Below, piece after piece: positions 893 to 43,735 of a DNA stretch of 64,000 bases. The position numbers and the translations under genes were made by a program. The stretch covers positions 154,330-218,329 of the forward strand of contig JACRJM010000010.1 of the NCBI GenBank assembly GCA_016219965.1. Reading direction: 5' to 3'. How positions within the stretch are numbered: the stretch's first letter is position 1; each line of letters opens with the position of its first letter. Under the pieces are notes generated by a model, which saw only the letters and a program-made list of their open reading frames with translations, searched no databases and was not told the DNA's origin. The DNA comes from Candidatus Schekmanbacteria bacterium (GTDB lineage Bacteria; Schekmanbacteria; GWA2-38-11; J061).

Positions 893-2410
893 TTACCTGA
901 TTACAGCACCCGGCACATCGGTTCCGGTAATTTTTTTGTAGGAAATCTGAAGCAATCTTACAGCATATTCAGTGTTATGCACACCCCGGCTTTTATCAGA
1001 GTCAACAAAAGACCAGTTGAAGGCACTCTGTTTTTCCTCATCAGTTGCACTGGAAGAAAATATAAAATAGGATCTGCTAAATGAATCTGCTCCTTCAGTT
1101 ACATTGCCTGATTTCAGTATCTCAGTTTTCAACAGCGCCAGCAATCCATCAATTTCACTCTGTATTCCCTCTTTAGTTCCATCTCCATCATAATCTCCGC
1201 GGGCAGTCCTGTTGAATGTCTCAAGTCCATCATGGCACTGCTGACATGCTGAAAAAAGCTTATTCCCGTCTTTATCTATCACCCTGAATGTATGCCCACC
1301 AATTGTGTTATGTCCTGTCTCACCATCAGCAGGAGTATCAAAACCATGACAGTCAAGGCATTTATTATCAAAACTGGAATGGGCGGAGTCGTCTATCGTT
1401 TCGCCGAATTCGTAGGCCCCGGTACCTGAAAACATCTGCGCCTGATTGAATCTTGGAGTCACGCCTTCGGATACTGCATCATCAACATTTTCTATCTGGT
1501 CATTGTGGCATGTATAGCAAATTGCGCCTTTGCCCGCGCTTACAGTCGTATTGGTGATAGGTCCGGGAAGGTCCACATCTCCCTGTGCTCTTAACTGAAA
1601 ATCATTGCCTGAACCATGAGGTGAATGGCATGCCCCGCATGTTACAGCATTTCGGGCTTCCCCCAAAGTAACGGAGCTGTCATAAATTTTATCAGCACTG
1701 TGACATTTAAGACATGAATTATTTACCTCAGGATGCCCCTCTAAATTCTCAAGAGAATTAGGGAAAGGAGAGTTGACCCACATGTCATACTGTCCTTTAG
1801 ACACGGAATCATCAACATTTTTTGTATGGCAATATCCGCAGACCTCTGCTTTTAAAGCCAGAAGTGTTCTGCTGGATAAACCCCTTGCTGAGCGCGCCGT
1901 ATAGTGCGGTGCATATTTTGCTCCTGCCAGATGGCAGGATTCACATCCCACGTTCTCAAGCTTATTAACCGGATTTTCATCATAGCCGCCATTATCTGCG
2001 GATTTACTGAAACCTGTCGTATGACAGCGGTAGCATTCGTTACTTCCACCGGCAACAACAGCAAAGGCATTTGCATGTTTGGTAGTTTCCCATATTTCTC
2101 CTGTTCCTTCATGGCAATATATACATCTGCTTGAACCGATATAAGTCCTGCCAAGAAATGGGGCCTTGGTAACTCCCTTTTTATCAGAACTGCTCGTGCT
2201 TCCTCCTCCCCCGCCGCTACACCCTGCAAAGGAAAAAATCAGCAGAGAAAATATTATAAATGTTGAAATTACCTGAACAGCTACGGTCAGCAAGGAAAGG
2301 TTTTTCCCTTTCTCTCCTAGTACTTCCAAAGGAATATCCTGTCTGCCTGACTTTAGAGAGCATGGAGCACCTTCAATAATAACAAATAGCCGTTGAAGAG
2401 AATCAAACAT
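893..2410 (-). CDS. 9-haem c-type cytochrome lipoprotein, probable outer component of a porin-cytochrome conduit
   Basis: The 505-residue product has nine CXXCH motifs (CIYCH, CYRCH, CESCH, CGYCH, CLKCH, CGACH, CYTCH, CLDCH, CQQCH). A long hydrophobic segment ends in a lipobox (F-A-G-C) followed by a Gly/Ser-rich linker, so it should be a lipid-anchored, exported multihaem cytochrome. The N-terminus is unusually long before the hydrophobic core (about 45 residues), but the ATG has a good AGGA ribosome site, so it is kept; a TTG start nearer the hydrophobic segment is possible. Haems are sparse (one per 56 residues), as in outer-surface decahaems, in contrast to the densely haemed neighbour upstream. 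The gap to that gene is 8 bases. I infer it is the terminal, cell-surface electron-donating cytochrome; partner and acceptor are unknown. Confidence 0.88.
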   Translation of the reverse strand: MFDSLQRLFVIIEGAPCSLKSGRQDIPLEVLGEKGKNLSLLTVAVQVISTFIIFSLLIFSFAGCSGGGGGSTSSSDKKGVTKAPFLGRTYIGSSRCIYCHEGTGEIWETTKHANAFAVVAGGSNECYRCHTTGFSKSADNGGYDENPVNKLENVGCESCHLAGAKYAPHYTARSARGLSSRTLLALKAEVCGYCHTKNVDDSVSKGQYDMWVNSPFPNSLENLEGHPEVNNSCLKCHSADKIYDSSVTLGEARNAVTCGACHSPHGSGNDFQLRAQGDVDLPGPITNTTVSAGKGAICYTCHNDQIENVDDAVSEGVTPRFNQAQMFSGTGAYEFGETIDDSAHSSFDNKCLDCHGFDTPADGETGHNTIGGHTFRVIDKDGNKLFSACQQCHDGLETFNRTARGDYDGDGTKEGIQSEIDGLLALLKTEILKSGNVTEGADSFSRSYFIFSSSATDEEKQSAFNWSFVDSDKSRGVHNTEYAVRLLQISYKKITGTDVPGAVIR

Positions 2411-2418
2411 TTTAATTC

Positions 2419-3333
2419 CTACTTAACAAGTTTTTTGAAGTTTATCCTATGGCATTCCTGACAAAATTCTCTTTCATGGCAGACAACACATGATCTTCCA
2501 TCCCTGCTTGCTACAGTCCTGTGATTTGGAACCCAATCAGGTTCATAATGTGTCGTAGGTCTTTGCTCATGGCAACGGCTGCAGAAATCTGCCTGATGAC
2601 ATACGGCGCACTTATCCCTGTCCTGCGTTGCATATCTGCCATGTATATCCTGCTTCCATGAAAGGCTATGGGAAGATGGCCTTACCTTTGTATGGCATTC
2701 TTCACAACTTGCAGACTTATGACATAAGAGACAGTCATCTGAGTCAGTTCTGGCACTCCTTCCATGAAACTCTTTCCAGGAGCTGTCGTGTGATACCGGA
2801 ATTGTATGGTCAATGGGCTTACGTCCCTCCCTTATTTCATCGTGGCATGTACTGCATTCCGAAACTGTCATACGATGGCATTTGGAACAGACTTCCATTT
2901 CAGGTATGTCTTCAACCGAAGTTTTATCTCTTGTCTTGATCTCAGGATGGCATTCAAGGCATCCAAAGCCCAAATCAATATGCACCTTGTGGTAAAACTT
3001 CACATCTTTTATCATCATCTGCATGTCACGCAGGAAAACCTTGTTGTCTTCCCTTGTGTGACATGATGAACATTTGTCAGGTGGATCTGATTCGTTTATC
3101 TCATGGCATTGGGAACATTGTTCGTGATTGGGAAGCGTCATCTTTTTTCCATCAGCATTTGTCTCATGACACTGGCTGCATTCAGCCCCGACTGCTCCTC
3201 CTGTTTCAGTATGGAACTTATGTGAAAAAACGAGGCCCAGCTCGTCTTCTCTGCATCCCTGGATAAATATACAAAGAAGCAGTACTGCAAATATGAATGA
3301 GCAGATTAGCGTTATATTTTTTTTATCTAACAT
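2419..3333 (-). CDS. 12-haem c-type cytochrome lipoprotein, probable barrel-inserted component of the conduit
   Basis: The 304-residue product contains twelve CXXCH motifs, about one per 25 residues, the density typical of nanowire-like cytochromes such as MtrA or the periplasmic partners of Geobacter porin-cytochrome complexes. An N-terminal hydrophobic helix ends in a lipobox (F-I-Q-G-C), indicating a lipoprotein. Many additional His residues (HKFH, HKVH, THYE) could be distal haem ligands, consistent with bis-His coordination. Start ATG at 3333 has an AAGGGGTG ribosome site. It is transcribed directly after the barrel gene (19-base gap) and 8 bases before the 9-haem gene. Family knowledge predicts that a dense multihaem cytochrome threads the barrel and passes electrons across the outer membrane; that role is inferred from gene order and composition. 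Confidence 0.9.
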   Translation of the reverse strand: MLDKKNITLICSFIFAVLLLCIFIQGCREDELGLVFSHKFHTETGGAVGAECSQCHETNADGKKMTLPNHEQCSQCHEINESDPPDKCSSCHTREDNKVFLRDMQMMIKDVKFYHKVHIDLGFGCLECHPEIKTRDKTSVEDIPEMEVCSKCHRMTVSECSTCHDEIREGRKPIDHTIPVSHDSSWKEFHGRSARTDSDDCLLCHKSASCEECHTKVRPSSHSLSWKQDIHGRYATQDRDKCAVCHQADFCSRCHEQRPTTHYEPDWVPNHRTVASRDGRSCVVCHEREFCQECHRINFKKLVK

Positions 3334-3352
3334 TACACCACCCCTTAAAACC

Positions 3353-4744
3353 TTAAAAATTAAGTCCCAGCTCTACCCTCACACCCTGCAGGTAATCCAG
3401 CTTAGAATAAGGCACGGCAAGCTTATCATCCTCTTCATAAGAATATGAAACAAGAAAATCAAGATTGTCGGTTATATATCCCTTGAAATAGGATGTAAGT
3501 CCATAGGTCTGGTATTTTTTCAAGTTATAATCATAAACCCTGTAAAACCCTCTGACATTGAATGATACATTATTGAGGTTCTTGCCGAACAGCTTGTTGA
3601 TAGAAGAGAAGCTTTGATCCAGCTGCTGACTAAACTCTCCGCTAATCTCCTGCGATTCAGTTTGAAACCTTTTAGAACGCCTGCTGTCCTGATAGTGTCT
3701 CCACTCCACAAGTATATCAGAACCCTTTAATGGTAAATTCTTGCAGTCAAGTCCTGCTGTGTATTCCTGAGAATCAGAGTTATACTGGTTTCCCTCATTA
3801 TTATTTATGAGGTTTTGTATCTTGTAAGATGCACTCACGCCAAAATAATCAAGGAATGGCTGATGGACCATAACATAATAATCTTCGAATGGCTGAAGCC
3901 GGAGTAATCCCAGCCTCGGCACTTTGAATCCCTTTAAGCCTCGGTTTTCCGCTGAAGTGTAGTCGAATTCATACTCATCAGAACTGCTTCCGCCAAGCCT
4001 TCTGTAATATTCGAAGAGAACCCTTGTGCCGTACTTTCTCGATGAATAGTTTGCACTTACATCAATGTCCTTGGGGTCTTCATTGATGGCAGCAAACTTG
4101 ATATCCATATCAAGGTTCTTTGTTATTTCCTGATAAATAGTAAAATCAGAACTGTAGTCAAGATACTTTACCATTCTGACTTCCAGTCTGGTATCCTTCA
4201 CAGGTTTAAAACCAAGGTTGCCTCCCCATATCTCATTTTTTCTGGGCTCGTATCTAAGACTTACACGACTGCCGCCGAAGGCGCTGAAATCAACATAGGG
4301 AATATTCTTTACCGCAATCTCAGCCCCATCAAAGTGCGCTACCTCGGCACCATAAAAATACTGCCTTCCTGCTTTCACGCTTGCTATGTTGAAAATGTTT
4401 TTATATTCTGCCCATGCGCTGTAAATCTCGCTCAGTTTGTCGCTTCCGCTATAAGTGTTTTTTACATCCCGGAAATAGTCTCTCCTCATGGTATCGCCGA
4501 TATCCCAGGCAATCCTCCCTGAAATAAAGGTTTCAAGATTTTCGAGACCGTAGCCATCGCTTCTGAATGTTACATACTGGTAAAAATCGTGGTCTTCGTC
4601 ATTGGTCCTTATATCTTCATAGCGGGCAGACCTGAAATCATAGATAGTCTTAAGATTCAGGCTGTAATCTTTGGAAAATACGCAAATCGGAGTAAATAAA
4701 ATCCAGAAGAAACACAGAACTGCCTTGAGCAATGTTCTTTTCAT
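3353..4744 (-). CDS. Outer-membrane beta-barrel (porin-like) protein of a porin-cytochrome conduit
   Basis: The 463-residue product has a cleavable signal peptide (hydrophobic segment ending C-V-F-S-K at about residue 26), then alternating amphipathic segments rich in Tyr, Phe, Arg and Asp with tight turns. It ends in G-L-N-F, the C-terminal Phe recognised by the BAM machinery. No enzymatic motif is visible. It resembles the medium-size barrels (about 400-460 residues, OmbB-like) that pair with multihaem cytochromes, more than the larger MtrB. The ATG at 4744 is preferred because GAGG lies six bases upstream; an in-frame TTG at 4747 is also possible. Two lipoprotein cytochrome genes follow within 20 bases, which is the main reason for assigning it to electron transfer rather than solute uptake. 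Confidence 0.85.
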   Translation of the reverse strand: MKRTLLKAVLCFFWILFTPICVFSKDYSLNLKTIYDFRSARYEDIRTNDEDHDFYQYVTFRSDGYGLENLETFISGRIAWDIGDTMRRDYFRDVKNTYSGSDKLSEIYSAWAEYKNIFNIASVKAGRQYFYGAEVAHFDGAEIAVKNIPYVDFSAFGGSRVSLRYEPRKNEIWGGNLGFKPVKDTRLEVRMVKYLDYSSDFTIYQEITKNLDMDIKFAAINEDPKDIDVSANYSSRKYGTRVLFEYYRRLGGSSSDEYEFDYTSAENRGLKGFKVPRLGLLRLQPFEDYYVMVHQPFLDYFGVSASYKIQNLINNNEGNQYNSDSQEYTAGLDCKNLPLKGSDILVEWRHYQDSRRSKRFQTESQEISGEFSQQLDQSFSSINKLFGKNLNNVSFNVRGFYRVYDYNLKKYQTYGLTSYFKGYITDNLDFLVSYSYEEDDKLAVPYSKLDYLQGVRVELGLNF

Positions 4745-4805
4745 CAATATCCTCTGGGTTATCAGTAAAATTTAATTTTAAAATTGGTTAAAAAATATCA
4801 CAATA

Positions 4806-6269
4806 TTATTTATTGTGTAAAGCAATTTCAATATCATTAAGAAGATAAAGCCTTGTTTCATCATCCTTGAAATATTTTTCAATTGTTTCCAGCATCTGGT
4901 CTATCATATCCTTTGAGGCAAAATCTGACAAAGCCTTAGCGGTTGCAGATACAACTGACTTATCGCTGTCTTTCAGCATTTTTAATAGTTCCGGGGCACC
5001 ATCCTTTCCTTTCACTTTCCCCCATGAGTAGACAGCACCTGCACGCACATCAGGTTCATCATCATTTAATAAAGTCTTCAGCGTCTCTTCAACCCTGGCA
5101 CCTTTAAGTTCTGCAAGCGACCAGGCTACAGAACTTCTCATCTCGAAATTCTGATCTTTAGCCCTGCTTATGAGCTCATCCTCTAAACCTTCAAATCCCA
5201 TTTTTTTAAGCGACGATGCCGCCTCTGTACGTACATCAAAATCATCATCATCAAGAGATGGAACAAGCTGTTTCGCCACTGTCCTGTCTTCTAAAATACC
5301 GAGCGCTTTTACTGCTTCAAGCCTTACAAACTCATCTTCATTGTCAAGTATTTTCAATATATCAGGAACAGCCTGCATAACCTTTGATGCGCCTAAAAGC
5401 TCGCATGCCATGCTTTTTATGTCTGTATCATTATCCTTTAACGACTTCATGAGAAGATCTTTCCCGCCTTTATCTCCTGTCTTCATCAGTGAAGCGGCAG
5501 CGTGCAGTCTCACTTCATCATCTTCATCTTTGTTATTTAAAAGCTTTCTGAGGCTGTCTGCAAGGTCTCCGATATTGATTTCACCGATAAGATCGCAGGC
5601 TGTAACTTTTACATCAATATCTTCATCACCAAGGGCTTTTTTTATACTCTCAGCAAAACTTTTGCCTTTGGCAGTTGAGAGTTTTTTAAGAGCATACATT
5701 CTGTTCCATTCATCGTTTTTATCTAAAAGCATTTTATTAAGTTCATCTTCGCTAAGCTTCTCACCTGTTTTTTCAAGCACCTCTGCTGCTGCGTTTCTTA
5801 CCTCGTAATCTTCACCGTAAGTGCTGCGCACTTTTTTCAGTATTTCCACTGCAGAGGCATCTTTCATCCTTTCAACGCTCTCTATGGCTATAAGTTTGAG
5901 GTCTATATTATTACCGGTAAGGAATTCTATTATGCTCCTTTTGGCAACTTCATCAAGGAAGGAGTCATCCTTTATACCTTTCTTTTTTAGCTCCATATAT
6001 GATTCAAGTGCTTTTTTTGTTTTTCCTCTTTTGAGCATAATCTCAGCCTTGACAACAAGCGCATCGCTGTTGCGGGGATCTTTTTTCAAAAGTTCATTTA
6101 TCACCTTGTCTGCTTCCTCAGTCTTACCTTCGGCGATAAGCGACTTTGCCTGCTTTATCAATCTTTCCCCTCCGATAACACATCCTCTTCCGCATGACGA
6201 CAGGGACAATGCAAGGATAGCGCAAAATGCCAGAAGCTTCAGAAATGGTCTCTTTTTTCTTTCATTCAT
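4806..6269 (-). CDS. TPR/HEAT-repeat lipoprotein
   Basis: This 487-residue protein starts with a signal peptide and lipobox (L-S-S-C at about residues 23-26), so it is probably anchored on the periplasmic side of a membrane. Residues 32-100 look like TPR helices (repeats around K-x-A-x-x-L-I-x-E-G-K). The rest, to about residue 460, is a run of roughly 30-residue HEAT repeats with the recurring pattern D-x-D-x-x-V-R-x-x-A-A-x-x-L, many loops being Asp/Glu-rich. HEAT solenoids are scaffolds. The gene is 61 bases upstream of the barrel gene and cotranscribed in the same direction, so a role in assembling or docking the cytochrome conduit is plausible but inferred. The ribosome site before ATG 6269 is weak. 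Confidence 0.85.
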   Translation of the reverse strand: MNERKKRPFLKLLAFCAILALSLSSCGRGCVIGGERLIKQAKSLIAEGKTEEADKVINELLKKDPRNSDALVVKAEIMLKRGKTKKALESYMELKKKGIKDDSFLDEVAKRSIIEFLTGNNIDLKLIAIESVERMKDASAVEILKKVRSTYGEDYEVRNAAAEVLEKTGEKLSEDELNKMLLDKNDEWNRMYALKKLSTAKGKSFAESIKKALGDEDIDVKVTACDLIGEINIGDLADSLRKLLNNKDEDDEVRLHAAASLMKTGDKGGKDLLMKSLKDNDTDIKSMACELLGASKVMQAVPDILKILDNEDEFVRLEAVKALGILEDRTVAKQLVPSLDDDDFDVRTEAASSLKKMGFEGLEDELISRAKDQNFEMRSSVAWSLAELKGARVEETLKTLLNDDEPDVRAGAVYSWGKVKGKDGAPELLKMLKDSDKSVVSATAKALSDFASKDMIDQMLETIEKYFKDDETRLYLLNDIEIALHNK

Positions 6270-6303: not shown

Positions 6304-6328
6304 GCCGCCGGAATATTCTTCCGGCGGC
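6304..6328 (-). terminator. Intrinsic terminator after the BACON/EB_dh cytochrome gene
   Basis: A perfect 10-base-pair GC-rich stem (GCCGCCGGAA pairing with TTCCGGCGGC) closes on a 5-base loop and is followed, on the minus strand, by a T-rich tail (CTTTTTTATT). It lies 40 bases beyond the stop of the gene at 6368 and only 35 bases before the ATG of the HEAT gene. There is little room for a new promoter, so the downstream conduit genes may depend on read-through. Confidence 0.88.
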
Positions 6329-6367: not shown

Positions 6368-8437
6368 CTATTCTATAAGCAAGCTCTTAAGCGCGATACC
6401 CTTATGGTTTGCAGTCGAATTATCAGTTACTGCCAAACCGAAATTATAGGTATTGCCTGTTTCGAATACTACGTCTCCTACATTTCCTGTATCGAGTTTT
6501 CTTGTAATTAATACATTCCATGTTCCGGTTATATAGGCGGATTCAACACTTAAGTCTTTATTTCCGCCTACTGCACCTCTGTCATCGAACAGTATATTTC
6601 TGGCAATATGTCCTGTTGTAATGGTTATTACCCCATCCTTATTGTAATAGTCGCCCGATCCAACTGTGCCACTAAATACTGCAAGTGAGCCGTCAAGCCA
6701 TATATCTGATGTTGTATAAATTGAATAACCATCGTTATCGAATAACTTACTTGCAGGAATCAGATCATTGGCGCCAAGTGATATACTTGTCCATATGAAC
6801 TGAGGTATTACAGTTGATGTAACAGGAAGAAGATTTGAAATCGTAAGGCTTCCTCCGTCATCAGCAGTGGCAATCGGGAAGGCAGAGTTTGCATCCCTTG
6901 CTAAGCCGAGAGGTGCTGTATTTGCCGCTTTCCATTCCCAAACATCAAGTACGCCGCCTGTACCTGCACCCATTGTCTGCGCAGCCAATGGAGTAAGAAC
7001 AACATTGTTAAAACTCCTGTCAGCATGGCAGTCTGTGCATGTTTCAGTCAATGGATCTACTGATGGATGGACGAAAGCAAGGTCCTGTACATCATCTGAG
7101 TTATTATGACACATGGCACAATTGGCGAGCGGTGCAACAGTGTTAGTTATAACGCCACTGTCATTTTTGGTCAGATGGCATGTTGATGCGCATCCTGCCT
7201 GAGCAAATGTCAATCCGGCCCTTCCGGCACTGTCTGTTATCGGGAACATCATGTACAACTTGTCTTCGTTTGTTTGCGCAGGATCAAAATTTACCCATCC
7301 TGTACCATTATATCCAAGTACTCCAGCAGTTGCACTATTGGTAGCATCTGGCCAGGTTGCCTTTATATACAGGTTCTGTGAATCATGTGCTGCCTGAAGT
7401 GTAACAGTGATCAAATCATCAAAAAGTGCACCATGACCACCGCCTACAACGTTTCCTTTGGTGGGGAATGGAACAGGAGTTATTACACCCCATATCAGAG
7501 AGCTAAGCTCGCTGTTTGTAACTGAATCTGATACCACAGTTGCAATCAGGTCAGCTGCCAATGCACTTTGAGCTATAGTGAATACTTTATCTTCTACTGT
7601 TATAACTGAAGTACGTATGTCTCCGGTGTTAGCTGACACAGCGTAGGAAATTACTCCAGGTCCTGTTCCTGAGAGGGTTTCCAGTGATATGGTGATCCAT
7701 GGAGCGCCCGGTGTAGCAGTCCAGTCGCAGGTAACATCCGTTGTAACTGTTATTACGCCCTCACCCCCTGGTGCATCGAATAAAGCCGGTAATGGATCAC
7801 CACTAAGCAGGAATATACACTCACCGCTTGCAGCAGGAACCTGAACTATTGTAATGACTTGATCTTCTACATTTATAGCAGCCTCACGAGCTTCAGTTAC
7901 CACATTCTCAGCAACCGTAAAACTGATTACACCTGTGCCTGTGCCTGAATCTGTATTTAAAGTAATCCAGTCAGCTTCTGTTGTTGCAAGCCACGGGCAA
8001 TTAGCTTCCGTTGAGACTGTGATTATACCGTCAGCGCCAACTGCCGGGAATTCAGGTGGGTTAGGAACAGGTATAAGTGTGAATGTACATGCTTCCGAAA
8101 TTTCAAATGCATTCTTTTTTGTAGCTTTCTTACTTCCAACTTTTACAACAACACTCTTTTTACCGATTGTTGCAGTATCTTTAACAGTATATGTTCCTTT
8201 GATTGTTGTTCTTGTGATTTTTCCTGTCTTTTTGAAGGTCACTCCCGAGATTGTTACCTTTGCCTTTGACGTAAACCCGTTACCTTTGATTGTAATCGTG
8301 CCCTCACCCCCTATAGTGGCCGGGGTAGGTGAGTAGGTTACCTTGCTGATCTTAAGCGCTGCTTCTGATGCTGTTACTCCAATTGCAAAAACAAATAACA
8401 TGATACAGAAAATACCGACTGCTTTTTTAAAACCCAT
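6368..8437 (-). CDS. Secreted IPT/BACON/ethylbenzene-dehydrogenase-like multihaem cytochrome
   Basis: From ATG 8437 (strong GGAGG site) the protein has 689 residues; a longer reading frame to 8581 exists but lacks a ribosome site. Order of parts: signal peptide to about residue 26; an IPT/TIG immunoglobulin-like domain (to about 110); two BACON-type domains of about 85 residues each, recognisable by W-x-x-T, W-I-T, G-x-G-x-I-S-[FY] and the closing I-x-Q; then a region like the haem-binding gamma subunit of ethylbenzene dehydrogenase/DMSO-dehydrogenase family enzymes (Y-I-K-A-T-W, later D-V-W-E-W-K-A). Inserted in the last part are CAMCH, CTDCH and a CASTCH (CX3CH) motif, possible c-type haem sites. 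It has its own promoter and follows the molybdopterin oxidoreductase gene. A role as periplasmic or surface electron carrier with adhesion-like modules is inferred. Confidence 0.85.
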   Translation of the reverse strand: MGFKKAVGIFCIMLFVFAIGVTASEAALKISKVTYSPTPATIGGEGTITIKGNGFTSKAKVTISGVTFKKTGKITRTTIKGTYTVKDTATIGKKSVVVKVGSKKATKKNAFEISEACTFTLIPVPNPPEFPAVGADGIITVSTEANCPWLATTEADWITLNTDSGTGTGVISFTVAENVVTEAREAAINVEDQVITIVQVPAASGECIFLLSGDPLPALFDAPGGEGVITVTTDVTCDWTATPGAPWITISLETLSGTGPGVISYAVSANTGDIRTSVITVEDKVFTIAQSALAADLIATVVSDSVTNSELSSLIWGVITPVPFPTKGNVVGGGHGALFDDLITVTLQAAHDSQNLYIKATWPDATNSATAGVLGYNGTGWVNFDPAQTNEDKLYMMFPITDSAGRAGLTFAQAGCASTCHLTKNDSGVITNTVAPLANCAMCHNNSDDVQDLAFVHPSVDPLTETCTDCHADRSFNNVVLTPLAAQTMGAGTGGVLDVWEWKAANTAPLGLARDANSAFPIATADDGGSLTISNLLPVTSTVIPQFIWTSISLGANDLIPASKLFDNDGYSIYTTSDIWLDGSLAVFSGTVGSGDYYNKDGVITITTGHIARNILFDDRGAVGGNKDLSVESAYITGTWNVLITRKLDTGNVGDVVFETGNTYNFGLAVTDNSTANHKGIALKSLLIE

Positions 8438-8494
8438 ATTATCCCTCCAGTTAATTTTTAATAAAATGATAGTGAAAATATGATACTTGGTGTC

Positions 8495-8524
8495 ATAATA
8501 GTTTGAATGCAATCCATTCGTCAA
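8495..8524 (-). promoter_or_regulatory. Sigma-70-like promoter of the BACON/EB_dh cytochrome
   Basis: Read on the minus strand, TTGACG (8524-8519) and TATTAT (8500-8495) are separated by 18 bases; each hexamer matches the consensus at 5 of 6 positions. The predicted start near 8488 leaves a leader of about 50 bases before the GGAGG ribosome site and ATG at 8437. Confidence 0.65.
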
Positions 8525-8624
8525 GTATCTTTTCATTAAAAGTATACTTTTTTTGTTACCACCTGACTTTAACAGTGTCAAACATTTTTTTTATTTTTTA
8601 AAATATTTCAATCTAAAAACAATT

Positions 8625-10739
8625 TTATTCTTTTTCTATCCTGCAAAGAAGTCCCCTCAACTGATAAGAACCAAAAGCATTATCATAGGGCGGCTGATTG
8701 CTGGTAAGCACATTGGCATTCGACTCCCATACACCGTAATCAGGGCCTTTTAGCTCAGGATACCACCAGCCATGATCAATGCTGATTACCCTCGGGTGTA
8801 TATCATCTGTAATGACGGCTTTCATTCTTGCTCTGCCTCTCGGGGAACTTATGATAATCCAGTCTCCTGAATTTATATTGTATCTGTCTGCAACTTCTCT
8901 ATGGATTTCAGCCTGCGGGAAAGGTCTTTTACTCCTAAGCGATGAGATCTGCCTTCCTTCGCTGTGAAAGAGCTCCATCTTACGGCTTCCGGTAATAAGT
9001 ATATAAGGAAATTCTTTGGCTGTCTCCGGAGCGCTCTCCGGACTCTCAGGGGGCTCCTTATATAATGGAAGAGGGTCATAGCCCATCCTCTCAAGTGTCT
9101 TGCAATATAACTCAACCTTTCGCGACGGTGTCCTGAAACCTTTTATCTCATATTTTCTGTATTCATGAGGAGGGTAAATAAAATGCCTTTCCAATAATTG
9201 CGTGTAATTAATCCCCAAAGGTTGAAGCTGGTAATTCATTATATCCTGTAAACTCTCTTCACTTGCCGGAAGGGAGAGCCTTTTTGCAAGCTCGTTCATT
9301 ATCCATTCATCCTGTCTCGCTTCTCCGAAGCTTGTTATCTTGGGTTGTGCTATAACCATATTCTCAACAACAAGGGGGTAGCCGATGACCTGCTCTACTT
9401 CAGGCCAGAATGCTGCAGGAAGGACATAATCAGCGTGAGCTGCGGTAGGAGTCATGAAGAGGTCGGTGACAACGAGAAGATCAAGCTTTATTAGGCTCTC
9501 ATATACCTCTTTTGCATTTGCAACCGTAGTAAGGGGATTTCCTCCGAAGATAAGAAGCGCTCTTATCCTGTAAGGTTCTCCTGTCCTCATAGCTTTGAAA
9601 AGCGCAGGTATGTGCGCTGACGGCATGAAAGCGCGCCACCCTCCAAGGAGTTTAAACTCATCCGCTCCGAGCCGTTTCTTAGACATCCCCTCCGGAAGTT
9701 TATCCTTCAGGGTAGGATAGCTGTTTATTATGTTCATGCCAAAGATGTCGCCGCCTGGAATATCAATGTTGCCTGTAAGCCCTCTTAATATGGCAATAGC
9801 CCTTACGGTCTGAAGGGAGTTTATATTCTGCTCCAGCCCTAAACCCCATTCAAGTATTGCCGGCTTGTTCAGCGCATATGTCCTTGCCGCCTCTCTAATG
9901 TCATCTGCAGGGACACCTGTTATCATTTCCGCCCATTGAGGGGTGCATTCTTTTACCCGCTCTTTAAGCTCATTAAATCCTATTGTCCATTTCTCAACAA
10001 AGCCCCTGTCATATATTTCCTCATTTATTATTACGTAGATCATGGCAAGGGCAAGGGCTGCATCAGTGCCGGGACGCACAGGGAGCCATTGCCCGCAGAG
10101 CTTTGCTGTCTCAGACCTCCTCGGGTCTATGGCAATGGTTTTGCATCCCTTGCGGAGAGCACGCCTCACAACTATGGAAAGCTCTCCATCAGGGCCTGAC
10201 ACAACAGGGTTATGCCCCCAGAACATTATACATCTGGGGGGAACTTCACCGTAATAATCGCCGGTCACAAATCCGCCGTAGGTGAGATTGCTTACCGTTA
10301 TGCGCGGGATGAAACACTGGGCAAGCCCGGGCTCATACCAGTTGGGAGTGCCAAGCTGGTTTGCAAATCTTACGGTGTGCATATAATGATGGCGTCCGGT
10401 CCCCTGCCCGAGGGCGATGGATTCCGCCCCTAGCTCTTTGCGGAACCTATCAAGCTTTGATGCTATCTCACCTAACGCATCATCCCATGATATCTTTTCC
10501 CATTGGCAGCTTCCTCTTTCACCTTTTCGGCGCAATGGATGTGAGAGTCTTTCCGGATGGTTTGCAATCTCAGCAGTTGCAAGCCCTTTTACACACATCC
10601 ACCCTTTGCTCATGGGTGATTCCGGGTTTCCCCGGACTTTTACCACTTTTCCGTCTTTCACATGGACAAGTGTGCCGCATCCGCCGTGACATATCCTGCA
10701 TACGCTTTTAAAAACTCTATCTGAGCTTGATGGATTCAC
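8625..10739 (-). CDS. Molybdopterin-dependent oxidoreductase, DMSO reductase superfamily, single subunit
   Basis: The 704-residue catalytic subunit binds one [4Fe-4S] cluster through C14, C17, C21 and C49 and should carry a bis-pterin Mo or W cofactor. C142 in L-A-Q-C-F-I-P-R sits where the Cys metal ligand is found in the formate dehydrogenase/acetylene hydratase branch. The C-terminal cofactor-binding domain (from about 590) ends with a G-Y-x-L-R-G-L-L-C motif. No Tat or Sec signal is visible, so it is predicted cytoplasmic. No iron-sulfur or membrane partner is adjacent, which sets it apart from respiratory complexes. The start is GTG with GAGG close upstream. The next gene downstream is a haem protein of an ethylbenzene-dehydrogenase-like type, but compartments differ, so a shared complex is uncertain. 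The substrate cannot be deduced. Confidence 0.88.
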   Translation of the reverse strand: MNPSSSDRVFKSVCRICHGGCGTLVHVKDGKVVKVRGNPESPMSKGWMCVKGLATAEIANHPERLSHPLRRKGERGSCQWEKISWDDALGEIASKLDRFRKELGAESIALGQGTGRHHYMHTVRFANQLGTPNWYEPGLAQCFIPRITVSNLTYGGFVTGDYYGEVPPRCIMFWGHNPVVSGPDGELSIVVRRALRKGCKTIAIDPRRSETAKLCGQWLPVRPGTDAALALAMIYVIINEEIYDRGFVEKWTIGFNELKERVKECTPQWAEMITGVPADDIREAARTYALNKPAILEWGLGLEQNINSLQTVRAIAILRGLTGNIDIPGGDIFGMNIINSYPTLKDKLPEGMSKKRLGADEFKLLGGWRAFMPSAHIPALFKAMRTGEPYRIRALLIFGGNPLTTVANAKEVYESLIKLDLLVVTDLFMTPTAAHADYVLPAAFWPEVEQVIGYPLVVENMVIAQPKITSFGEARQDEWIMNELAKRLSLPASEESLQDIMNYQLQPLGINYTQLLERHFIYPPHEYRKYEIKGFRTPSRKVELYCKTLERMGYDPLPLYKEPPESPESAPETAKEFPYILITGSRKMELFHSEGRQISSLRSKRPFPQAEIHREVADRYNINSGDWIIISSPRGRARMKAVITDDIHPRVISIDHGWWYPELKGPDYGVWESNANVLTSNQPPYDNAFGSYQLRGLLCRIEKE

Positions 10740-37239: not shown

Positions 37240-38460
37240 TTAATTATTGAGAAATGCCGCTATGTCGGCAAGCTCAGAGTCTTCCATCAATGGCCACTGT
37301 ATATTCTTCTTTTTCATCTCATCGCGCATCTTGGGCCCATGGTTCCACATCGCCCACGCCATATAAATCGGAGAAATTTTATTATTGTCAGACGGCAGGG
37401 ATATCTTCCCATCTATTTTCCCGGTTCCTTTTACATGGCAGGAAGAACACTTCTTTGTATTGAAAAGCTCCGCGCCCATTTTGGCATCCCCGGCAGTTTC
37501 AACCCGTCTTAAACTTAAAAGATATGCAACCAGATGAGACATCTCATCAGAAGTAAGCTCTAATTTTCCTTCGCTGATACTGGCTCCTCTGGAAATCATA
37601 AGCGGGGAATGATTCCACATTAGCCCTGCAATCTGCATTATGGTGATGATTCCATTTTCCCCGGAACTTAATGCCTTCGAAAGATCGGGGCCTGCTTTTC
37701 CTCCCTTGCCATATACCGAATGGCAGGCGATGCATCCCTTCCTCCGGAAAATCTCCTCTCCTTCAGCGGCATTCCCGGGCGACAAATATTCTTTTTCAGA
37801 CACACCTGATACTTCCTTTATATAAGCCACAAGATCTGCCATGTCGCTTTTTTCAAAGGTAGGCCATTTTATCCCTTTTTTAGCCATTTCTCTTTTCATC
37901 GCAGGCGCATGGTTCCACATGAGATCAGCCCATACAACCGGGCTTGTATATTTTCCCCAGCCCGAAAGCTCAGGCCCCACACGTCCACCTTTCCCTTTAA
38001 TAGAATGGCATACGCTGCATTTTTTTTCTTCGAAAAAAGATGCCCCTTTTTTTGGATCACCGATCTCAATGGTAGAGCGTATAAAGGTAAGAAAGGAGAA
38101 GATATCTGACATCTCCTCTTTTGACACAGGTTCGTATTTGATTTCTTTAAGGACTATTTTCTCAAGCATAACCGGCGCATGGTTCCAGAGGGATGAAGCC
38201 AAACTGCTTTCAGTTATATCCCGTCTCTTATCTTCTGACACCGCAAGGTCAGGCCCCTCATTTCCGCCTTCTCCCCAAACCGAATGGCATTTGATACACC
38301 CCTTCTCATAAAAAGCTTTCCATCCTTTCGTAGGATTTCCCTGTTCTGAAGTCTTATCATTAATACTCTCAGAAGATGATACAGGGGGAGAGGCAAGAAG
38401 CAGTATCAACATGATCAGGAAGAGAACACACAAACTCTGAGATTTCAAGTTCCCCCTCAT
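37240..38460 (-). CDS. Cytochrome c with four tandem class I-type haem domains
   Basis: The roughly 406-residue exported protein has a signal peptide and four repeats of about 95 residues. Each has a CXXCH (CIKCH, CSVCH, CIACH, CSSCH), a G-x-G-G-x-x-G-P-[DE]-L block in the first three, and an M-W-N-H-x-P-x-M type motif giving a probable axial Met. It should be periplasmic and may carry electrons to or from the membrane complex encoded just upstream. The ATG overlaps the stop of the small membrane protein gene (TGATG); a GTG three bases earlier is possible. It corresponds in place to the small cytochrome subunits of alternative complex III, but has four haem domains instead of one. Confidence 0.87.
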   Translation of the reverse strand: MRGNLKSQSLCVLFLIMLILLLASPPVSSSESINDKTSEQGNPTKGWKAFYEKGCIKCHSVWGEGGNEGPDLAVSEDKRRDITESSLASSLWNHAPVMLEKIVLKEIKYEPVSKEEMSDIFSFLTFIRSTIEIGDPKKGASFFEEKKCSVCHSIKGKGGRVGPELSGWGKYTSPVVWADLMWNHAPAMKREMAKKGIKWPTFEKSDMADLVAYIKEVSGVSEKEYLSPGNAAEGEEIFRRKGCIACHSVYGKGGKAGPDLSKALSSGENGIITIMQIAGLMWNHSPLMISRGASISEGKLELTSDEMSHLVAYLLSLRRVETAGDAKMGAELFNTKKCSSCHVKGTGKIDGKISLPSDNNKISPIYMAWAMWNHGPKMRDEMKKKNIQWPLMEDSELADIAAFLNN

Positions 38461-38789
38461 CACTGGTTCATCTCCTCTATTTTATTCATTGGTTTATCTT
38501 TGGGTTTATCTTTGAGTTTATCATTGAATTTATCATTAGGTCTGTCTTTAGCCAGAGTTATCCCAAAAAAGAGTGTACCTCCCACGCCGGCAAGAAGAAT
38601 GAATACCGGTATTATGAGAATAGCTATGACACGCGCAAAAGGCGCTGAAGGGTCATTCCATTCAGAAGCCCAAAAATAACCGTTAAGGAGAAAAACGATT
38701 ATAAACACAGCCATTCCCCATAAGGCGAGAACAATTGAAACATGTCCCGCAAAAGTTATTTTCCTGAATGTTGAGTCATCAATCTTCAA
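38460..38789 (-). CDS. Small two-helix membrane protein of the oxidoreductase operon
   Basis: The 109-residue protein has two membrane helices (about residues 16-36 and 52-75) and a charged cytoplasmic tail made of four-residue repeats of the K-D-K-P type. The tail is encoded by a 12-base tandem repeat. No known domain is recognised. The start is TTG with GGAG seven bases upstream; it overlaps the next gene. Position and topology suggest an accessory subunit of the alternative complex III/Qrc-like complex. Confidence 0.75.
   Translation of the reverse strand: MKIDDSTFRKITFAGHVSIVLALWGMAVFIIVFLLNGYFWASEWNDPSAPFARVIAILIIPVFILLAGVGGTLFFGITLAKDRPNDKFNDKLKDKPKDKPMNKIEEMNQ
38491..38550. repeat. 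Five 12-base tandem repeats encoding the charged tail
   Basis: Units read GGTTTATCTTTG twice, then AGTTTATCATTG, AATTTATCATTA and GGTCTGTCTTTA. They are in frame within the small membrane protein gene, encoding K-D-K-P/N-D-K-L-type tetrapeptides, so copy-number change would keep the frame. Confidence 0.85.
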
Positions 38790-38800
38790 TCTTATTCTCC

Positions 38801-40165
38801 CTAATCAGCCCGTTCCGGTTCATTTTTCAGTCCCGGCAGATAGCTTTCAACCCTCTCGCTTACCTCCTGTACAGATTTTTTACGCCCCTCTTTTATTTCC
38901 CATATGGATATTACGGGAAAGAACTTTGTAAATAAAACATAGAGGAGGATAAAACCCGCAAAACATCCTGCCATTTCTGAAAACTCCACCCAGCTTGGGA
39001 AATAGTTTCCCCTGTCATAGGGAAGCCTTGGGTTGGCAAGCGTAGGTACAATGATGCAGAACCTTTCAAGCCACATTCCAATAGTGACTGAGACTGAAGC
39101 AATCACAATTCCGGTAATTGTTCTCGTCTTCTTGTTGCACAATATCGTAAATGGAATAACAAAACAGGTGATGCACATTACCCAGAAATAAGGGGAGAAG
39201 CGCCCGCTGAACTTTTCCCAGAATACCGCCATGTGAACCGGCTCCGCGCCGTAGAACGTCGTGATATACTCACAGAATGTAAAATAAAACCATAGCAGTG
39301 TCATAACAAGAAGAAGTAATGACATATTCTCGAAATGGACACGGCGTATATAGTTCTCAAGGTTAAACGCTTTTCTTAAAACCGCCATGGCGATAATAAG
39401 GGCTGCAATCCCTGAAAAAATCGCACCTGCCACAAAATAGGGACCGAATACAGTGCTGTGCCACATAGGCTGGACGGTCATGGCAAAAACATATGACACA
39501 ACCGTATGTACAGAAACAGCTACCGGGATAACGACAATCGCCATTATGGCAATCAATCTTTCAAGCACCTTCCACTGGAGAGGAGTCCCTTCCCAGCCAA
39601 GGGCAAGAATTGAATAAACGAGCTTCCTTATTTTCCCTTCAGAGCGGTCACGTATCAAAGCGATGTCAGGTATCATGGGAATATAAAGATAAACCGTGCT
39701 TGCTGTAAGATATGTCGTAATGCTCACCATATCCCACAATAGCGGGGACTGGAACCTTCCGTAGATTATCGGGTTTAACAACCTATCAGGTCTACCCATA
39801 TCCACAAAGGGATTTGCTGCACCGATAAAAAGAACCATCACTGTAATGATTTCAGCCGACCTTGTTATGGCTCTTCTCCATTCAGCCTTGGCTATCCGGA
39901 GGATTGCAGAGATAAGCGTACCCGCATGGCTTATGCCGATGAAGAATACGAAGTTTGTAATATACATCCCCCAGTAAACAGGACGGTTCAGATTGGTTAC
40001 CCCTAACCCCCATATGAGCTGTGACATATAAGCAATCCCGGCCCAGGCGACAATGGCAAGAAGAATACCTACTGTAATATAAAATCCCCTTCCTGTTTTA
40101 AATATGGGCTCAAGGAGAATGTCGTCAGGGTCTTCCCCGATGGTTTTTACTTTTTCATCCGCCAT
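38801..40165 (-). CDS. NrfD/PsrC-family quinone-interacting membrane subunit
   Basis: The 454-residue protein has about ten membrane helices with the NrfD pattern (N-R-P-V-Y-W-G-M-Y-I-T-N-F near residue 60, F-x-G-I-S-H-A-G-T-L-I-S, D-M-G-R-P-D-R). Conserved His and acidic residues within helices are those thought to form the quinone site and proton path. It is the ActC/QrcD-type subunit, linking the quinone pool to the periplasmic haem and iron-sulfur subunits. It is three bases behind the ferredoxin-subunit gene and eleven bases before the small membrane protein gene. Confidence 0.9.
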   Translation of the reverse strand: MADEKVKTIGEDPDDILLEPIFKTGRGFYITVGILLAIVAWAGIAYMSQLIWGLGVTNLNRPVYWGMYITNFVFFIGISHAGTLISAILRIAKAEWRRAITRSAEIITVMVLFIGAANPFVDMGRPDRLLNPIIYGRFQSPLLWDMVSITTYLTASTVYLYIPMIPDIALIRDRSEGKIRKLVYSILALGWEGTPLQWKVLERLIAIMAIVVIPVAVSVHTVVSYVFAMTVQPMWHSTVFGPYFVAGAIFSGIAALIIAMAVLRKAFNLENYIRRVHFENMSLLLLVMTLLWFYFTFCEYITTFYGAEPVHMAVFWEKFSGRFSPYFWVMCITCFVIPFTILCNKKTRTITGIVIASVSVTIGMWLERFCIIVPTLANPRLPYDRGNYFPSWVEFSEMAGCFAGFILLYVLFTKFFPVISIWEIKEGRKKSVQEVSERVESYLPGLKNEPERAD

Positions 40166-40168
40166 TTA

Positions 40169-40852
40169 TCATTCACCTTTTAAAAGGTAATAGACCTTAG
40201 GCTCTGTCCCTAAATCTTCCAATAACCGTGAAGCCCTGCGGCTTTTCGAAAGAACTGTAACCCTGTGCTGAGGATTGTCAAGGTCCCCGAAATACATCGC
40301 CTTGCCCGGGCAGGATTCGACGCATGCAGGCACATAATCATCTTCACGCATATCGCGGTTTTCAGACCTTGCCAGCTCTTTAGCCTTTTGCCATCTATGG
40401 TGGCAGAAGGAGCATTTTTCTACAACCCCCTTGGGGCGTACCGAGACATCAGGGTTAAGCGTTGCCATCATCTCACTGGGCCAGTACGGCACATACCAGT
40501 CGAAATATCGCACAGTATAAGGACAGGCGGTAGTACAGTACCGGCAGCCTATACAGCGTGGATAAATCTGCCCAACCAAACCTCCATCTCCTTTATATGT
40601 TGCTCTCACAGGACAGACCTTGGTACAGGGAGGTTTATCGCAGTGGAAACAGGGTCTTGGCATTATTTTCTTCTTCACATCAGGATATTCGCCTTCCTCA
40701 ATTGTAAGAATATCCATCCATCTTATGGACCTTCCTTCCCTGAAAAGCTGAGGATCAGAGAGCCCAATGTTGTTTTCCGAATTGCAGGCGATAATACAGG
40801 CTCCGCAGCCAGTGCATTTATCAAGGTCGATCACCATTCCCCATCGCGGCAT
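40169..40852 (-). CDS. Four-cluster ferredoxin subunit (NrfC/DmsB type)
   Basis: The 227-residue protein has the four Cys groups of the DmsB/PsrB family: C-T-G-C-G-A-C-I-I-A-C, C-F-H-C-D-K-P-P-C-T-K-V-C-P, C-I-G-C-R-Y-C-T-T-A-C-P and C-S-F-C with a later C-V-E-S-C-P, enough for four iron-sulfur clusters. It lacks its own signal peptide and would be carried across the membrane with the Tat-signal-bearing catalytic-type subunit encoded just upstream. In alternative complex III this part is fused to ActB; here it is separate, as in Qrc. Confidence 0.92.
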   Translation of the reverse strand: MPRWGMVIDLDKCTGCGACIIACNSENNIGLSDPQLFREGRSIRWMDILTIEEGEYPDVKKKIMPRPCFHCDKPPCTKVCPVRATYKGDGGLVGQIYPRCIGCRYCTTACPYTVRYFDWYVPYWPSEMMATLNPDVSVRPKGVVEKCSFCHHRWQKAKELARSENRDMREDDYVPACVESCPGKAMYFGDLDNPQHRVTVLSKSRRASRLLEDLGTEPKVYYLLKGE

Positions 40853-40870
40853 TTAATCACTCCTAAAACA

Positions 40871-43216
40871 TTATGCTTTATAAATCTTCACCTTCGTCTT
40901 ATCTGCAAGGAAAATCCCTGTAACTGGGTCACGCACAGCACTCATGATATCTGCTGCATTGCTTCCAATCCCATTTGACCATTCACCGGGGATAACATGC
41001 CCCATGCCGGCAGGGATTGAAACAAATTCTGGATGAATACTCTTTGTCGGTGTAACCTCTGCCCTTATCTTCCCTTTATCAGACTCCACTATAACCTCAT
41101 CTCCCCGCTTAAACCCGAGCTTTTTTGCGATCTCTTCATTTATCTCAATCCATGTATTCCATCTATCAGTCAGAACAGATGTTATATTATCAAGCATCCA
41201 GGGTGAATTCGGGTTGGTCAGTGCGGCAAGAGACGCAGGTTTAGAAACATGAAGTGCGAAATACTGCTCTCGTGTTTCATCCGTTTCCGTCAGCTCGGGG
41301 AAAGAATAATTCGTCATACTTTTGATTGCCGGCATAAGCTCAAATTTGCCGGTCGGTTTTAAAATAACACGCGATAATTCCCCATAATAATAAATCGGGT
41401 CCCACCATCCTCCTGCATCTATTATCGTTTTTTTGAATTCATCAAGTCCGCCTTCTGATGGGATCCTCCAGCCTGCTTTTTCAAGAAGTCTTACCCATGT
41501 CCCTTCAAATTCCTCTCCAAGCCTGCTCCCTCTTCCCGCTTCAAAAAGCCCTTCGATGGCAAGCTCTACGTAATCGCTGAAACTCTTCCAGTGAAAGTTT
41601 ATGGCGACCTCCGGAGAAAGTCCTGATGCAATGTTTAAAAGAACATCCTCAGATGCTTTGCATTCGACAACAGGCTCCACAACCGGCCGGGATATTGAAA
41701 ATACCTGATAACCTTCAGAGGTGGCAACAGCGGAGCCGTTCCATTTTTCGAGATATGTGCAGTCAGGAAGTATCATATCACAAAGAGATGATGTTTCATC
41801 CATTATACCGGAGAAACTCACCTTGAAAGGTATTTTATCAAGTGCTTTTCTCCACAGCGCGCTCTCTAAACTTGAGTAAATCGGATTTGCATTTTTTATG
41901 AAAAGAGCCTTTACCGGCGATTCCGGCGAAGAAATAATTTTACTTAGAAAATCCGTGTTATTCTCTCCATATATTGATGATGATTTCTCTCCTTCTTTTT
42001 TCAACACTATATCAGGAGGGAAAAGGATGCCGCCTTTCGTATTTATACTTCCTAAAAGAGCGTTAAGGCTATGGACTGCAAGCTGTATCCGCGTTTGCGT
42101 CCGATTTCCTACAGCCAATGCAGGTCTTGAAGAGGCAAAGTCTCTTGCAAGCCTTATTATTTCCTCAACCTTAACTCCCGTCATATTTGAAACATCAGAA
42201 GGGGCATATTCACTCATCACAACAGATTTGAAGCCCCTCTCTGTTTTTCCGCTTTCATCAGTCCGGTCTTCAAAGCCGCTGCAGTTTATATTCACAAAAT
42301 TATAATCATAGAGGTCTTCCCTTATGATCACATGCGCAACACCCAGAGCAAGAACGCCCTCGGTTCCGGGCCTTACCGGTATCCATTTGTCCGCAGTCGA
42401 AGCAGATGCGGACAATCTCGGACCCACGTGAACAAATCTGCATCTGCCCGATGGTCTTTCGCTGTGGGCCTGTCCATAAGCTTTTAAAGACTGCATGAGG
42501 TTCTCGTGGCTTTCAAAGATATCAGTATTGAAAGAGAGGACAAAATTGGAATTACCAATATCATAGGAAGGGGCAGCATTTATCCCCTGCATCAAATAAA
42601 TTGCATCGAGCATGGATGAATCATAATAATCATGCCCATCCATGTAGCAGATATAGTTTGGACTTCCATAAGCCTGCATAAACCTGTCAGCAAAACTTAC
42701 TTCAAGACTGGTTGAAGGCTTCCCATGCAAAAACATAAGAGACTGCGGGCTTTGTGTCCTCAGGGATTTAAGATTACCGGTAACAGCTTTCATGGCATCA
42801 TCCCAGGATATCCTTTCCCATTTTGAACTGTCGCCGCTTCCGGTTTTTTTCATCGGACCCGAAAGCCTGTTAGGATTATAAAGGATATGAAGCCCGTTCA
42901 CACCTCTGGGGCATATGCCGCCGCGGTTTACAGGATGGGCAGAATTCCCCTCTATGCTTACAAGACGGCCATCAATCGTCCTTGCACGGATGCCGCAGGA
43001 GCTTGAGCAGAGATTGCACGTCGTAGTCTTCCATGTTTCAATGCCGTGCGGAACCGGGACCTCCTCAAATCTGTTCAGGAATTCATGGATTCCCTTGTTC
43101 ACATTTTTTATCTTCTGGCAGCCGCCAAGTGCAGTAGCAGAAGCGGCTCCGGAAGCTTTTAGAAATGATCTTCTTTTTATATTTCTATGCTTCTTCAAAA
43201 CACCTTTTCTCCTCAT
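40871..43216 (-). CDS. Tat-exported molybdopterin-oxidoreductase-like subunit (ActB1/QrcB type)
   Basis: The 781-residue protein begins with a twin-arginine signal (R-R-S-F-L-K at about 15-20, ending near A-L-G-G-C). A [4Fe-4S] site follows with C-N-L-C-S-S-S-C and C-P-R-G, and then the domains of the DMSO reductase superfamily. Its operon partners identify it with the large subunit of alternative complex III or Qrc, where the molybdopterin site is usually empty; whether a cofactor is bound here is not clear from sequence. It lies 18 bases from both the pentahaem gene and the ferredoxin gene. Confidence 0.88.
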   Translation of the reverse strand: MRRKGVLKKHRNIKRRSFLKASGAASATALGGCQKIKNVNKGIHEFLNRFEEVPVPHGIETWKTTTCNLCSSSCGIRARTIDGRLVSIEGNSAHPVNRGGICPRGVNGLHILYNPNRLSGPMKKTGSGDSSKWERISWDDAMKAVTGNLKSLRTQSPQSLMFLHGKPSTSLEVSFADRFMQAYGSPNYICYMDGHDYYDSSMLDAIYLMQGINAAPSYDIGNSNFVLSFNTDIFESHENLMQSLKAYGQAHSERPSGRCRFVHVGPRLSASASTADKWIPVRPGTEGVLALGVAHVIIREDLYDYNFVNINCSGFEDRTDESGKTERGFKSVVMSEYAPSDVSNMTGVKVEEIIRLARDFASSRPALAVGNRTQTRIQLAVHSLNALLGSINTKGGILFPPDIVLKKEGEKSSSIYGENNTDFLSKIISSPESPVKALFIKNANPIYSSLESALWRKALDKIPFKVSFSGIMDETSSLCDMILPDCTYLEKWNGSAVATSEGYQVFSISRPVVEPVVECKASEDVLLNIASGLSPEVAINFHWKSFSDYVELAIEGLFEAGRGSRLGEEFEGTWVRLLEKAGWRIPSEGGLDEFKKTIIDAGGWWDPIYYYGELSRVILKPTGKFELMPAIKSMTNYSFPELTETDETREQYFALHVSKPASLAALTNPNSPWMLDNITSVLTDRWNTWIEINEEIAKKLGFKRGDEVIVESDKGKIRAEVTPTKSIHPEFVSIPAGMGHVIPGEWSNGIGSNAADIMSAVRDPVTGIFLADKTKVKIYKA

Positions 43217-43234
43217 TATTCTTTCCCAGCTTTC

Positions 43235-43735
43235 TCAGCGGTGACAATCCACACAATCCCATACAACGTTCCGCTCCTTGTGACATTCGATGCAGTCTTC
43301 CATCACCAATGTTTTAAGAGGACTTGTAAGCGGCTCGGTCATCTTCCATACTTCGCCATGGCATTTCACGCAGTCAATATTCGCTATGCCCACATGCCTT
43401 CTGTGCGAAAAATAAACATGAGAAGGGAGTTTAAAAACCCTTTCCCATTCCAGGTCTTCATGCCTTGAGGAAGCCTGTCTTATCTTTTCCTCCTCAGGGC
43501 TGTCCGTTATTTTGCTCTCATGACAACCAAGGCAGATACCTATATCAGGAATACCTGCAAAAGTTTGTTTCTTAACATAGACATGACATGCCTCGCATTC
43601 AATGCCCTGTCCTACGACATGTACTTTGTGGCTGAATTTTACAATCCGGCCTGAGAACTTAGAGAGAGGGAAAACAGAAACTGTAATGCCCCCACAGAAA
43701 ATAAGAATAAGTGCAGGTACCAAAAATTTCTTCAT
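43235..43735 (-). CDS. Pentahaem c-type cytochrome (ActA/QrcA-like)
   Basis: The 166-residue protein has an N-terminal hydrophobic segment (signal anchor or signal peptide) and five CXXCH motifs (CEACH, CLGCH, CVKCH, CIECH, CVDCH), with extra His in F-S-H-K-V-H and F-S-H-R-R-H for bis-His coordination. Five haems match ActA of alternative complex III, while Qrc has six. It is the first gene of the operon, behind a sigma-70-like promoter, and ends 18 bases before the molybdopterin-like subunit gene. No clear ribosome site precedes the ATG. Confidence 0.88.
   Translation of the reverse strand: MKKFLVPALILIFCGGITVSVFPLSKFSGRIVKFSHKVHVVGQGIECEACHVYVKKQTFAGIPDIGICLGCHESKITDSPEEEKIRQASSRHEDLEWERVFKLPSHVYFSHRRHVGIANIDCVKCHGEVWKMTEPLTSPLKTLVMEDCIECHKERNVVWDCVDCHR

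Follow-up and report, generated by a model that had tools for sequence, protein, structure and literature searches.

The window analysed here is a stretch of 64,000 nucleotides from the genome of a Candidatus Schekmanbacteria bacterium (contig JACRJM010000010.1, positions 154,330-218,329); all coordinates given below are window positions. Near its left end lies a unit of four genes encoding a lipoprotein with TPR and HEAT repeats, an outer-membrane barrel and two multihaem c-type cytochromes (Table 1), which most probably forms a trans-outer-membrane electron conduit of the porin-cytochrome (Pcc) type of Candidatus Schekmanbacterium. An earlier note on this DNA had described the genes as running in that order in one direction with short gaps, and all four were found where it had placed them, on the minus strand, with intergenic gaps of 58, 19 and 8 bp from the HEAT gene to the 9-haem gene. 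The haem counts given there were confirmed as exactly 12 and exactly 9 CXXCH motifs.

Products of the gene unit

The 12-haem protein contains 12 further His residues, sufficient for bis-His ligation of all haems, and its predicted lipid site is Cys27, behind a hydrophobic stretch. The earlier note had regarded the lipoprotein nature of both cytochromes as unusual; both do appear to be lipoproteins at this locus, but this is not a peculiarity of it, since all ten relatives aligned with the 12-haem protein keep Cys27, which makes it a feature of a subgroup. OmaB-like proteins appear to start with a plain signal peptide, although some score as lipoproteins when a loose lipobox motif is applied. 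The N-terminal part of the 12-haem protein resembles pentahaem ActA/QrcA, and a wider profile matched the Geobacter-type polymer cytochrome 3OV0 (318 amino acids, aa) and had a weak match to chain A of 6r2q, taken here to be MtrA.

The 9-haem protein carries a FAGC lipobox ending at Cys64. Its open reading frame (ORF) is probably over-extended because a relative in another genome of the order (G001) is without about 40 of the N-terminal residues, and the start probably lies later in the frame than position 2410. Comparison with OcwA (PDB 6I5B) gave an E value of 1e-19 with a profile and 3.4e-13 with the single sequence, the alignment falling in three stretches that cover the c554-like N-terminal part and the NrfA-like C-terminal helices with the GVHN region. 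By sequence comparison, the protein is homologous to OcwA, a terminal reductase of NrfA/HAO type with nine haems that works at the cell surface of Thermincola potens (PMC6703420). It has only eight other His residues and the G001 relative has twelve, eight of them common to both proteins, which is compatible with at least one haem that is not bis-His ligated, as in OcwA.

Of 82 multihaem proteins from barrel loci, 16 carry the motif HN..[YF]....[LIMV] within their C-terminal 90 residues (0.2 expected from shuffles), examples among outer cytochromes being those at L196 1524-3749, L045 7674-9209 and window 893-2410. The OmcB-like set matched NrfA-family structures weakly, and outer proteins of the OmcB and OcwA types may share an NrfA-like C-terminal part.

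The barrel ends in a terminal Phe (...GVRVELGLNF). A home-made strand score gave 14 candidate strands where shuffled sequences gave 9.0 +/- 2.3, a margin that does not fix the strand number, and no relative was found in profile searches of the PDB. The HEAT lipoprotein has an LSSC lipobox, a TPR region at about residues 40-100 and HEAT repeats beyond it (HEAT_2, E 7.5e-65). Because a strong, terminator-like hairpin followed by T6 parts its gene from the upstream gene, it is probably the first of the transcript.

Table 1. Features of the proposed conduit unit and of the quinone-reactive complex in the window. Cut-offs are the curated NCBIfam values; id, amino acid identity to the G001 protein.
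Feature	Positions	Strand	Length (aa)	Remarks
TPR/HEAT-repeat lipoprotein	4806-6269	minus	487	First gene of unit
Outer-membrane barrel	3353-4747	minus	464	OmbB/Pcc superfamily
12-haem c-type cytochrome lipoprotein	2419-3333	minus	304	
9-haem c-type cytochrome lipoprotein	893-2410	minus	505	OcwA-like
Sensor histidine kinase, start	3-827	minus		Cache domain with one CXXCH; runs past window edge
Terminator-like hairpin	6304-6328			10-bp stem, 8 G-C pairs; then T6 on minus strand
5-haem cytochrome, QrcA/ActA-like	43235-43735	minus		QrcA E 5e-26, below cut-off; 57% id
QrcB-like molybdopterin-fold subunit	40871-43216	minus		QrcB E 1.6e-104, below cut-off; 52% id
QrcC-like iron-sulfur (FeS) subunit	40169-40852	minus		QrcC E 9.5e-95, below cut-off; 76% id
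NrfD/ActC-like quinone-binding membrane subunit	38801-40165	minus		PDB 6f0k_C E 1.7e-75; 76% id
4-haem class-I cytochrome c	37240-38463	minus		Cytochrom_C repeats, 4 CXXCH; 56% id, to G001 gene immediately before barrel

Conserved linkage and relation to known conduits

Within the phylum, the genome containing the window was compared with three other genomes of the order (G001, G002 and G003), whose barrels are 41-53% identical to that of the window. G001 carries the sensor kinase, 9-haem, 12-haem and barrel genes in the order seen in the window, and G002 carries a 7-haem relative, the 12-haem gene and the barrel gene, reaching the contig end. With the window genome, three genomes therefore share the linkage and order of a barrel gene, a 12-haem gene and a gene for a 7- or 9-haem protein. 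A family profile (A6) built from 15 barrels was searched in 385 genomes sampled across many families and found relatives in 54 of them. A protein with at least five haems was encoded within two ORFs of the barrel in 45 of the 52 family loci examined, several of the remaining loci lying at contig edges. Chance grouping of the genes was excluded because the relatives keep the 12-haem and 7- or 9-haem genes beside the barrel and most family barrels have a multihaem neighbour. In G003 (GWA2_38_11, locus L006), a transposase-like ORF stands downstream of the barrel in place of the 12-haem gene, and the conduit of that genome may be broken or split.

Barrel-family loci of Geobacteraceae encode a barrel of about 404 aa, an 8-haem protein of about 230 aa and a lipoprotein with 9-12 haems; L196 has two such clusters in tandem, and in L197 a TetR gene stands ahead of the cluster, an architecture that matches the one published for ombB-omaB-omcB. 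Genome G311 was classed as Geobacteraceae-like by a PpcA of 77% identity. Alignment of the Schekmanbacterial barrels with the OmbB-like set from Geobacteraceae by hhalign gave a probability of 97.9% (E 6e-13), against 0.2% for a reversed control. In a tree whose deepest splits are weakly supported, the window barrel fell in a set of 22 barrels (98% support) separate from the OmbB branch, and 12 of these 22 adjoin an inner cytochrome with 11-14 haems.

The locus thus resembles OmbB-OmaB-OmcB of Geobacter sulfurreducens (PMC4245776, PMC4589669) in barrel superfamily and in the order of barrel, inner cytochrome and outer lipoprotein cytochrome. It differs in its inner cytochrome, which has 12 haems and a lipobox as opposed to the 8 haems of OmaB, in its outer protein, which has 9 haems and is OcwA-like, and in the position of its barrel outside the OmbB branch. 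The Pcc clusters of Anaeromyxobacter and Kuenenia (PMC4245776), compared by description only, likewise place a long inner cytochrome of 12-14 haems beside a small barrel, but are without the outer cytochrome gene present here. OcwA of T. potens (PDB 6I5B, PMC6703420) also has nine haems and is homologous to the outer protein over its c554-like and C-terminal parts; it acts on a Gram-positive cell surface, whereas its homologue in the window is a lipoprotein whose gene accompanies those of an outer-membrane conduit. MtrCAB of Shewanella works alike, with barrel, inner wire and outer reductase, but belongs to a different family. In the profile search against Mtr families that the earlier note had suggested, neither the barrel nor its family matched TIGR03509 for MtrB/PioB barrels, PF11854 gave one weak match (E 0.0038) among 15 family barrels, and the barrel has 464 aa against 662 model positions; membership in MtrCAB was rejected. 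Candidate ExtAB loci (L139 and L199, recognized by architecture only) scored 86.6% for the barrel and 91% raw for the cytochrome, the cytochrome score being lost on masking.

Published Pcc systems have 5-14 haems in the inner cytochrome, 1-15 in the outer cytochrome and barrels of 18-22 strands, and haem numbers of 12 and 9 are ordinary for this kind because they fall within those ranges. Given also the relation of the barrel to the OmbB type and the shared gene order, the distinct conduit type proposed in the earlier note was not upheld: the locus is best read as a Pcc conduit with variant traits, namely a predicted lipid-anchored inner wire, an OcwA-type outer reductase and a link to a complex similar to Qrc and alternative complex III, and not as a new type.

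Other arrangements were observed around barrels of the family. In G336, the barrel of the L152 4337 region adjoins a 33-haem protein of 917 aa. At L040, L041 and L058 (G377) and L189 (G424), a barrel and a 6-haem cytochrome are followed by a large molybdopterin oxidoreductase and an FeS protein; the oxidoreductases begin in Tat-type fashion and may have a lipobox, with four near-identical copies in G377, and these loci possibly encode extracellular molybdoenzymes fed by a conduit. Sensor histidine kinases bearing CXXCH in their presumed sensor part adjoin family barrels in several genomes, at L008 14049-16157, L051 2952-4412, L115 7962-9428, L123 2046-3545 and L145 7530-9092, and control by redox sensors that use haem may be common among Pcc-family conduits.

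Neighbouring genes and possible electron supply

In G001, the barrel gene comes immediately after the genes of a complex whose subunits are a 5-haem protein, QrcB-like and QrcC-like proteins, NrfD and a 4-haem cytochrome c. The same complex is present in G002 and in the window (37240-43735; 52-76% identity to G001). Its best NCBIfam matches are QrcA, QrcB and QrcC, each below the curated cut-off, and for the membrane subunit the nearest match is ActC, from alternative complex III.

The sensor kinase ORF that is cut by the window edge is complete in the same genome beyond the edge (L008 14049-16157, 702 aa), with kinase matches; profile matches of the Cache domain in the 3-827 ORF were weak. 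A gene for an NtrC-type sigma-54 activator follows the kinase gene outside the window, and a scan for sigma-54 promoters gave matches at chance level. Shortly beyond this regulator lie genes for NapC-like cytochromes, for a Rieske/cytochrome b set and for proteins combining multihaem and cytochrome b parts, whose architecture is CbcL-like. Taken with the complex that adjoins the conduit in G001, this gene neighbourhood suggests a complete electron chain from quinol to the cell surface.

An 11-haem cytochrome ORF at L008 2200-4002 begins with a response-regulator receiver domain and also has a NapC-like part; either this combination is unusual or the ORF is wrongly joined. The genes next upstream of the unit (6368-10739) encode a TIG/BACON protein, which has CXXCH motifs and a haem domain like that of ethylbenzene dehydrogenase, and a molybdopterin oxidoreductase that lacks a Tat signal. 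A tblastn search against plasmids gave no match.

Proposed function and alternatives

Gene content, conserved linkage and homology of the barrel to the Pcc barrel family of Geobacteraceae support the outer-membrane electron conduit put forward in the earlier note. In the proposed arrangement, the barrel would be the pore, and the 12-haem lipoprotein, its lipid in the inner leaflet, would be the wire entering it from the periplasm. Outside, the OcwA-like lipoprotein with 9 haems would pass electrons to an extracellular acceptor, for example a partner cell, humics or minerals of Fe(III) or Mn(IV). Menaquinol would be the electron source, by way of the inner-membrane complex resembling Qrc and alternative complex III, together with the CbcL-like, NapC-like and Rieske/cytochrome b proteins, and the haem-Cache sensor kinase with the NtrC-type regulator would probably control expression. 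The placing of the 12-haem protein inside the barrel, the surface site of the 9-haem protein, the direction of flow and the acceptor are all predicted.

Several observations weigh against this reading. Alignment of the two cytochromes with the OmaB and OmcB sets by hhalign gave 98.8% and 99.6% raw, above all control cytochromes, but the similarity vanished once CXXCH was masked and for that reason was not counted as independent evidence. The Geobacteraceae loci used for comparison are ombB-omaB-omcB by architecture and not by name. The quinone-reactive complex of the window lies 31 kb from the conduit, and the AlphaFold models are of low confidence, with a predicted local distance difference test score (pLDDT) of 29 for the barrel and 40 for the 12-haem protein modelled alone.

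The earlier note had also taken the TPR/HEAT lipoprotein for a fourth component, and a new conduit type in which this protein is a structural subunit scaffolding the barrel-cytochrome complex is quite unlikely. Its gene heads the unit behind the hairpin, and in G003 a homologue (34% identity) lies two genes from the barrel, with a 7-haem gene between them. No homologue was found in G001, however, a genome 97% complete that carries the barrel, 12-haem and 9-haem genes; in G002 the homologue lies on another contig amid unrelated genes; no HEAT gene stood beside the barrel in the distant loci examined outside the phylum; and the homologues share only about 30% identity with the HEAT protein of the window. 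Since it was not found in G001 and is unlinked in G002, the HEAT lipoprotein is not a constant component and is at most an accessory of this lineage.

Direction of electron flow cannot be read from sequence. An inward conduit, in which Fe(II), a partner or a mineral would supply the 9-haem protein with electrons and quinone would be reduced at the Qrc-like complex, is considered unlikely. Qrc reduces menaquinone in sulfate reducers, and QrcA, QrcB and QrcC are the best NCBIfam matches of the complex, though below cut-off; porin-cytochrome systems have come under discussion in iron oxidizers too (PMC5566968). Outward flow is favoured by the membrane subunit, since ActC belongs to a quinol oxidase, by the role of OcwA, nearest relative of the outer protein, as a terminal reductase, and by the CbcL-like and NapC-like neighbours, which suggest quinol oxidation. 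Slow reduction of nitrite by OcwA (PMC6703420), and spare His residues in the 9-haem protein that are fewer than its haems and compatible with an open site, would also fit a periplasmic or surface reductase of the nitrite/hydroxylamine type served by the barrel as a substrate porin, with no trans-membrane wire. That arrangement is very unlikely: it leaves the 12-haem partner, with its full bis-His capacity, without a role, although barrels of the family have no neighbour more constant than a multihaem protein, and no CXXCK motif was found.

A more specific proposal is rather unlikely: a Pcc subtype in which a lipid-anchored wire of 11-14 haems plugs the barrel from the periplasm and delivers to a reductase of the OcwA/NrfA class, the whole being hard-wired to a hybrid Qrc/alternative-complex-III quinol oxidase and, in HEAT-bearing lineages, having the HEAT protein as an assembly or docking factor.

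In the literature searched, neither extracellular electron transfer with cytochromes nor a Pcc-type conduit was found described for this phylum. The Pcc conduit proposed here would assign likely extracellular respiration to an uncultured phylum and would tie the surface reductase class of the Gram-positive Thermincola, represented by OcwA, to outer-membrane conduits. In G001, where the quinone-reactive complex adjoins the conduit, the whole path from quinol to the surface would be testable as one gene block.

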